Source: Chiridota heheva
Taxonomy: Eukaryota; Echinodermata; Holothuroidea; Apodida; Chiridotidae
Direction of reading: 5' to 3'
NCBI GenBank assembly: GCA_020152595.1
Contig: JAIGNY010003302.1
Coordinates: 124,001-188,000 of the forward strand
Length of the DNA: 64,000 nt
Under the pieces are notes generated by a model. That model had not been told where the DNA came from and searched no databases. It worked only from the letters and a program-made list of their open reading frames with translations. Below are positions 51,101 through 54,100 of this stretch, in pieces; within the stretch, counting starts at the first letter, position 1; each line of letters starts with the position of its first letter. The translations under genes and the position numbers were made by a program.

Positions 51101-54100
51101 TAACACTTGTTTCTTTTGAGGAAAGGTTTAGTAACTAGAGCTCAAATCAAGTTATATATCAGAGAACGATGAAAAGATGAAAAGCAAATTTATCAAAAGT
51201 GGAGTTTAACTGAATCATGAAATTTAAATTATCAATACCTATGATCGTAAACTTATCAATCTCTAATTAATTGCCACAATCAACATTCACTCTCATAACA
51301 CATCATCAAATTGTTCCAAAATATTGTTTTCGGAATGTGTGTTCCATGTTTGTTTTGGAAAGGGAGGGGTGACGACTAGATGGGTAGAGGGTCTTTGTGG
51401 GTTGGGATGGGTAAAACAATGTTAAGCCATGCCCGTGAGATTGACTCATAATGCATAAATGTGGTGCTCCAAAGAAGTAAAATAATTCATGCAATTGTTT
51501 TCAGAATGTGTCTATCATTTTTGTTTTTGAAGTGATAAGATGGGAGGCTGTCTGTGAGTGTCGGGATGTCAGAAACGACCTTAAGCCGTGAGAATGTGTG
51601 CACACTTACTCAATTTCTATGAGTGTCGGGATGCCAGAAACGACCTAAGCCGTGAGAATGTGTGCACACTTACTCAATTTCTATGAGTGTCGGGATGCCA
51701 GAAACGACCTAAGCCGTGAGAATGTGTGCACACTTACTCAATTTCACCCTGGCAAGCATGAGTGTCGGGATGCCAGAAACGACCCTAAGCCGTGAGAATG
51801 TGTGCACACTTACTCAATTTCACCCTGGCAAGCATGAGTGTCGGGATGCCAGAAACGACCTAAGCCGTGAGAATGTGTGCACACTTACTCAATTTCACCC
51901 TGGCAAGCATGAGTGTCAGGATGCCAGAAACGACCCTAAGCCGTGAGAATGTGTGCACACTTACTCAATTTCACCCTGGCAAGCATGAGTGTCGGGATGC
52001 CAGAAACGACCTTAAGCCGTGAGAATGTGTGCACACTTACTCAATTTCACCCTGGCAAGCATGAGTGTCGGGATGCCAGAAACGACCTTAAGCCGTGAGA
52101 ATGTGTGCACACTTACTCAATTACACCCTGGCAAGCATGAGTGTCAGGATGCCAGAAACGACCTTAAGCCGTGAGAATGTGTGCACACTTACTCAATTTC
52201 ACCCTGGCAAGCATGAGTGTCGGGATGCCAGAAAGCGACCTTAAGCCGTGAGAATGTGTGCACACTTACTCAATTTCACCCTGGCAAGCATGAGTGTCGG
52301 GATGCCAGAAACGACCTTAAGCCGTGAGAATGTGTGCACACTTACTCAATTTCACCCTGGCAAGCATGAGTGTCGGGATGCCAGAAACGACCTTAAGCCG
52401 TGAGAATGTGTGCACACTTACTCAATTTCACCCTGGCAAGCATGAGTGTCGGGATGCCAGAAACGACCTTAAGCCGTGAGAATGTGTGCACACTTACTCA
52501 ATTTCACCCTGGCAAGCATGAGTGTCGGGATGCCAGAAACGACCTTAAGCCGTGAGAATGTGTGCACACTTACTCCAATTTCACCCTGGCAAGCATGAGT
52601 GTCGGGATGCCAGAAACGACCTTAAGCCGTGAGAATGTGTGCACACTTACTCAATGTCTGGCAAGCATGAGTGTCGGGATGCCAGAAACGACCTTAAGCC
52701 CGTGAGAATGTGTGCACACTTACTCAATTTCACCCTGGCAAGCATGAGTGTCGGGATGCCAGAAACGACCTTAAGCCGTGAGAATGTGTGCACACTTACT
52801 CAATTTCACCCTGGCAAGCATGAGTGTCAGGATGCCAGAAACGACCTTAAGCCGTGAGAATGTGTGCACACTTACTCAATGTCTATGAGTGTCGGGATGT
52901 CAGAAACGACCCTAAGCCGTGAGAATGTGTGCACACTTACTCAATTTCACCCTGGCAAGCATGAGTGTCAGGATGCCAGAAACGACCTTAAGCCGTGAGA
53001 ATGTGTGCACACTTACTCAATTTCACCCTGGCAAGCATGAGTGTCAGGATGCCAGAAACGACCTTAAGCCGTGAGAATGTGTGCACACTTACTCAATTTC
53101 ACCCTGGCAAGCATGAGTGTCAGGATGCCAGAAACGACCTTAAGCCGTGAGAATGTGTGCACACTTACTCAATTTCACCCTGGCAAGCACTGATCCATAG
53201 TCATCCTGCAGCTCTGCCGTGTCCTCCTGTCTTCGTATGGTCACATGGTGCCACTCACGATCGTTGTAGTCTGAGATAGTTGTAGAGGCATATGACCCTG
53301 CACCCAAGTCCTGCATACATGAAGAAAGAAAACAATTTTCTGAGAATATATCAAACTGAAAGGTCTACGGATACATATAACCTATTACAAAGAGCATTAA
53401 ATTCTGAGTAAATGCAACATTGGACCTAAAATTAGCATATTTAGGTTTTGAGTGATGCATATTCAAAGAATAAAGATTTTTTTCATACATGCAAATGTTA
53501 TGTCTGCATGAAAAGTTTCAAAACTTGGAGCAAGTGATTCAACAACAATGAATTTACATAAGAAAATAGACAGGTATGCTGTTTGCACATCACAAAATTG
53601 CATAAAAAGACTGGGAAAATTCGAAAGATATAAATAAAACAGGACACTTTATAAGTGATTTTAAAAGACTTTCTTGCAATTTACAATGCAAAATGGGCAC
53701 TACAACGAAAAATGATGACAAAATTTTTGCAAGACTCAAAAAAATGTTAAACGAAGCTTTTTCACCAACATGGAAAGCTATAAGACTTATCTAACACCAA
53801 TATTTATATCAAGTAGTTATCTAAAATTAATAAACAATAACATTTAATCACTTTAAGAAGCAAAATAAGTCAATGAATATTTGCCAAAAAGATGCCCACA
53901 CTTTTGGGTCTGGTGCCCTTTAAGGTTATGTTACCTCCATATACCTTTACTAAAAATAAATGACATACCCTGGTATTCAGTCCCAGAACTAGTCTGCCCT
54001 CCTCCAAATACAGAACCATGTAGGCTGGATTCACCAGGTAGAAAATGATGCCATTTGGTGATCTGTGAAATGAGAATGCAATTCAGCGTGTACAGGTCAA

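Follow-up and report, generated by a model that had tools for sequence, protein, structure and literature searches.

Minisatellite-like tandem duplications of exon-intron boundaries, named mirages, have been described in the amphioxus Adh3 and globin genes (PMC3087553). Many but not all mirage repeats carry splice signals, the clusters are unstable in length, and they have been proposed as a route to new introns; data on Adh3 together with reverse transcription-polymerase chain reaction (RT-PCR) on the globins suggest that regular splicing is undisturbed by them (PMC3087553). Similar imperfect repeats were found at two exons of lancelet PGBD5, in a report that cites the globin, Adh and troponin C cases (PMC3902484), and the introns of amphioxus VCBP genes contain copies of exons, whole or in part, of which some have canonical splice sites (PMC2632668). 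The mirages of PMC3087553 and PMC3902484 are from cephalochordate genes. In this study, a minisatellite built from the end of a LamG exon and its splice donor is described in Chiridota heheva. It lies at 51555-53189 of a 64,000-nt stretch, referred to as the window (assembly GCA_020152595.1, contig JAIGNY010003302.1, positions 124,001-188,000 of the forward strand). The array consists mostly of 76-bp units, holds 22 donors and overlaps the last 21 nt of the exon; like the gene that contains it, it is read from the minus strand.

The human gene IFI6 (6-16/G1P3) was reportedly described by Turri in 1995 as having a minisatellite with multiple splice donor sites. Several donors are supplied by this minisatellite, and two downstream repeat units are reportedly used, resulting in three mRNA species (PMC4526556). 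Boundary tandem repeats in human duplicated genes, found in recent paralogs with units averaging 30 bp in four copies, can produce alternative splicing or novel introns (PMC2812944), and tandem duplication as a source of intron gain is a related idea (PMC4974935). Boundary minisatellites are an already described class. By anatomical criteria, as far as the sequence can be read, the C. heheva locus is a long and well-preserved example of the mirages. Its tandem unit reaches across an exon-intron boundary (21 nt exonic and 55 nt intronic, with 22 donors in all), the array adjoins what the phase and LamG match of the exon-adjacent donor (donor 1) indicate to be the authentic boundary of a real exon, and the copies carry splice signals (GTAAGTG in 22 of 22). 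Its mosaic of units, seen in one haplotype, is compatible with the instability of mirages in length and in somatic tissue.

The heptamer GTAAGTG occurs 22 times in register from 53168 to 51609, once as the authentic donor and 21 times as an extra copy. The initial annotation had counted about 20 extra donors, and its coordinates and anatomy were borne out with small corrections, including a usual unit of 76 bp made of 21 nt of exon and 55 nt of intron, the donor being part of the latter. The 21 donor-to-donor intervals measure 76 bp in 14 cases, 77 bp in two, 64 bp in two, and 75, 73 and 65 bp in one case each. Tandem Repeats Finder reported 20.0 copies of 76 bp with 96 % matches and a score of 2777, and the array is far beyond chance. 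It had been claimed that every unit keeps ATTGA/GTAAGTG; this is true of GTAAGTG (22 of 22), whereas ATTGA stands directly 5' of it in 21 of 22, copy 9 reading ATTGGA. The presence of the exon end in every unit was likewise overstated, as the 21-nt exon piece is unchanged in 15 of the 21 extra copies and altered in six. Copies 5, 21 and 22 are short, with most of the exon piece replaced, copy 8 is of a hybrid type, and copies 9 and 15 have small changes in the exon piece. The 65-bp unit between donors 4 and 5 (52876-52940) ends with CTCATAGACATTGA in place of the exon piece, and the two distal 64-bp units, which precede donors 21 and 22 (51610-51737), both end with CTCATAGAAATTGA. A T/C site, the short and long types and small indels together form the mosaic of unit variants. 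A 26-nt block, GAGTAAGTGTGCACACATTCTCACGG, is identical in 22 of 22; it includes the donor and extends past it. The idea that the donor copies are under selection was considered and is unsupported: with an invariant stretch longer than the donor itself, identical donors do not speak for selection, and recent homogenisation accounts for the identity.

The host exon (53169-53310, 142 nt) has an acceptor CAG^GACTTG with a score of 4.4 (^ marks the splice junction), enters in phase 0 and leaves in phase 1. It ends with ...GTGAAATTGA (in a longer stretch, ...TGCTTGCCAGGGTGAAATTGA), followed by GTAAGTG of donor 1 (53162-53168). The gene model, for which exons were searched under a phase constraint with a set of splice weights and with a codon table that was based partly on exons of this window, places a LamG exon before it (53969-54062) and an exon with the C-terminal half of LamG after it (51007-50809, acceptor TTACAG^ATAGCG, donor AAG^GTAAGA). 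The identification of the host as a LamG exon is supported by a Laminin_G_2 match across the spliced exons around the array (E=1.2e-17, 64.9 bits). It had been called exon 4, and it is the fourth in the model counted from the window edge, but not the fourth of the gene.

Among the 22 donors, donor 1 alone leaves an open frame across the junction with the next exon. The exon 51007-50809 carries on the LamG domain in phase 1, the phase that donor 1 supplies, and the exon search also picked donor 1, with a codon table trained in part on this very exon. When the other 21 array donors were joined to the same exon, a stop was met in 21 of 21 cases, nine codons past the junction codon, at the in-frame TAA at 53140-53142 (codon 57 from the exon start). 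This agrees with the expectation of the initial annotation, and with a stop at codon 57, use of a distal donor cannot yield the full protein. Two further candidates, apart from the array donors, were rejected. The GTGAGT at 53258, inside the exon, is disfavoured only by the loss of 30 LamG residues (29.9 compared to 64.9 bits), while AGG^GTGAAA at 53178 scores 0.4, is in phase 0 and leads to a stop in the next exon. Donor 1 as the real donor is thus backed by phase and by the LamG match, which makes it well supported, not proved. Acceptor-like TGCCAG^GG is present in 17 units with a score of 2.97, and an 11-nt mini-exon formed with it would shift the frame; splicing within the array is possible but unsupported.

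We consider it likely, with a probability of roughly 0.8, that the array is a mirage minisatellite straddling a 5' exon-intron boundary which arose as a by-product of slippage or recombination, that the exon-adjacent donor is the one used, and that the array is tolerated, not functional. Donor 1 would normally be used through exon definition, because an exon of normal size, 142 nt, results from it. Use of a distal donor would lengthen the exon and bring in a stop, so that leakage to these sites would yield nothing productive, and the extra copies are probably tolerated and harmless.

Several points weigh against this reading. With a consensus score of only 1.2, donor 1 is surpassed by 16 of the 19 other modelled donors. 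The copies share its letters from -5 to +7, with the exception of copy 9, and since they are letter-identical to a weak donor, strength alone does not explain the choice of the first. When identical donors compete, the intron-proximal one often wins, which would predict non-productive splicing here. The GTGAGT at 53258 has the same score as donor 1, 1.2, and leaves the frame open. The link to amphioxus is solely one of anatomy, and in IFI6 the downstream repeats are reported to be used, whereas here the distal donors lead to a stop.

It is conceivable, though we regard it as unlikely, that the gene is regulated by the array, in that transcripts from distal donors hit the TAA and are destroyed or truncated while copy number sets the dose. 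All 21 distal donors do reach the same stop, codon 57, but since introns can be expected to contain stop codons, the TAA is no designed feature. The exons extended to donors 2 and 3 would be just 218 and 294 nt long, which is in line with such dose control. Of the published systems, IFI6 points towards it with its reported use of downstream repeat donors (PMC4526556), and the amphioxus mirages point away from it, as RT-PCR suggests regular splicing there (PMC3087553).

A further idea, which we hold to be improbable, is that the array silences its own decoys. Adjacent units would pair via the palindrome GTGTGCACAC, which overlaps the donor, and bury the inner donors, whereas donor 1 would stay ordinarily accessible because the exon, and not a unit, lies upstream of it. 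The openness of donors was predicted by local RNA folding in windows of 150 and 240 nt. With 150 nt, the predicted probability of being open was 0.015 for donor 1 and 0.0000-0.0046 for the 21 copies; with 240 nt, it was 0.0174 compared to 0.0105 for the best copy (1.7-fold). Donor 1 was thus predicted to be more open than 21 of 21 copies in both settings, yet it fell short of the regional mean (0.0533 and 0.0469, respectively). The median openness of the 20 modelled donors, donor 1 included, was about 0.01, which makes donor 1 ordinary and the copies mostly lower. Shuffling of the upstream sequence left donor 1 more open than the three copies after it in 36 of 40 trials, and its openness changed little when shuffled sequence took the place of the downstream array (median 0.0103, range 0.0100-0.0248 in 40 trials). 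Against self-burial, 8 of the 20 modelled donors are at or below 0.0046 with 150 nt and so do not exceed the most open copy, donor 22 at the other edge of the array is closed (at most 0.0001), and the fold of three units is barely better than that of shuffled sequences (z=-1.67, 11 of 200 fold as well). These folding data are new here and are a hint, not proof. If true, self-burial would explain how exon-boundary minisatellites can grow without wrecking splicing.

Very unlikely is an assembly artefact, by which the true genome would have one or few copies. Misassembly of tandem arrays is common. What speaks against a simple artefact is the mosaic of unit variants, which would not come from stuttered assembly of one copy. 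Assembly problems are on record for the known cases, since one mirage was called aberrantly assembled in a draft (PMC3087553) and repeat numbers differ between two lancelet assembly versions, although re-sequencing of the lancelet case argued against assembly error (PMC3902484).

Hardly credible is the proposal that the copies act as a sponge for the U1 small nuclear ribonucleoprotein (snRNP), or recruit U1 to shield the transcript from early cleavage: positions +1 to +6 are intact in the 22 donors and their pairing with U1 is predicted at -6.4 kcal/mol, close to the -6.2 of each of two neighbouring exon donors, but better pairing is predicted for two other neighbours (-10.0 and -9.5), the copies are predicted to be hardly accessible, four other arrays with at least seven donor-like sites (score at least 1.2) touch no modelled exon, and a single locus is hardly able to deplete an abundant snRNP. 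For splicing control and for a U1 trap alike, both suggested in the initial annotation, the sequence gives no positive evidence.

The order of the units suggests a history for the array in which short units came first, an observation which is new here. The short type (copies 5, 21 and 22) reads CTCATAGA(A/C)ATTGA^GTAAGTG. The flank after the last unit is CTCACAGACAGCC (CTCACAGACA), and the short units continue the flank as CTCATAGACA or CTCATAGAAA. Compared with this flank, the short type would follow the native intron for about 8-10 letters and then jump to the exon end. CTCAT is common to short and long units whereas the flank has CTCAC, so that the long unit is most simply derived from the short one. 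The first tandem duplication of the boundary may therefore have produced a unit of about 64 bp with about 8 nt of exon end, after which a shift of register would have re-captured 21 nt of exon in a 76-bp unit, and the array would then have been expanded and homogenised by slippage or unequal exchange. The start of the intron also has an older copy, now diverged, of about 170 nt (51308-51476), which aligns to 51483-51639 with a local alignment score of 89, compared to a maximum of 60 and a mean of 28.5 in 500 shuffles, which indicates that the region was duplicated more than once.

The host gene is long, with LamG exons first and EGF exons after them, and the model comprises 20 exons across the window. 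It is incomplete: some of the exons are doubtful, e.g. the 25-nt exon 43423-43399, and at least one likely EGF exon, 34453-34332, was missed. A longer product has a single Pfam LamG stretch, a second LamG domain upstream being read by eye only, and EGF matches follow downstream of the LamG part. In PDB, the joined protein matched neurexin-1-alpha, with a whole-chain value of 2.6e-26 that adds up several repeats and 0.00079 for the best single stretch, and also laminin chains. Just downstream of the EGF exon 35164-34949 lies a partial, apparently broken copy of its end (34774-34842, 77.9 % over 77 nt). Minus-strand pieces resembling a non-long-terminal-repeat retrotransposon, with reverse-transcriptase-like open reading frames, were identified at 11487-17110 by eye only.

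Minisatellites are common in this region. Merging of Tandem Repeats Finder rows gave 21 arrays, which cover 44.8 % of the window. Only the donor array (1 of 21) touches any of the 20 modelled exons, and the next nearest array is 43 nt away from one; the overlap seems to be a single event in a minisatellite-filled gene. Donor-like sites are not enriched in arrays compared to outside them, with 2.89 and 2.77 per kb, respectively, at scores of at least 1.2, 0.80 and 1.30 at scores of at least 3, and 0.52 and 0.48 at scores of at least 5. Acceptor-like sites amount to 3.28 per kb in arrays and 2.07 outside at scores of at least 3, and to 1.15 and 1.13 at scores of at least 4. The excess at the lower threshold comes mainly from two other arrays, with 58 sites at 30732-34219 and 33 at 44999-47158. 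The former is a 55-bp minisatellite whose unit carries a minus-strand acceptor-like CAATGCAG^GATG, and its exon-side edge lies 113 nt beyond the likely EGF exon end at 34332. The unit of a 49-bp minisatellite at 41568-42525 includes a strong donor-like GTG^GTGAGT; this array has 14 minus-strand donor-like sites scoring at least 3 and touches no modelled exon. Between modelled minus-strand exons at 9733-10069, an 84-bp (28-codon) repeat in four copies is open over its whole length in two plus frames and one minus frame.

The value of the locus is that of a strong test case, not of a new phenomenon. With 22 near-identical donors at one boundary, it offers a natural test of how the spliceosome chooses among equal sites, and it also tests how boundary minisatellites are tolerated or become new introns. 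The unit of the IFI6 repeat is shorter than the unit found here. The boundary repeats of human duplicated genes, with 30 bp in four copies, compare to 76 bp and 22 donors in a LamG/EGF gene. The amphioxus mirages of Adh3, BflGb6 and BflGb9, and the similar repeats of PGBD5, have units of tens to about 160 bp with splice signals beside an authentic boundary, as in C. heheva, and both 5' and 3' boundaries can be affected in amphioxus (PMC3087553, PMC3902484). Two haplotypes of BflGb6 contain six and three repeat units, compared to the 22 boundaries of the present array.
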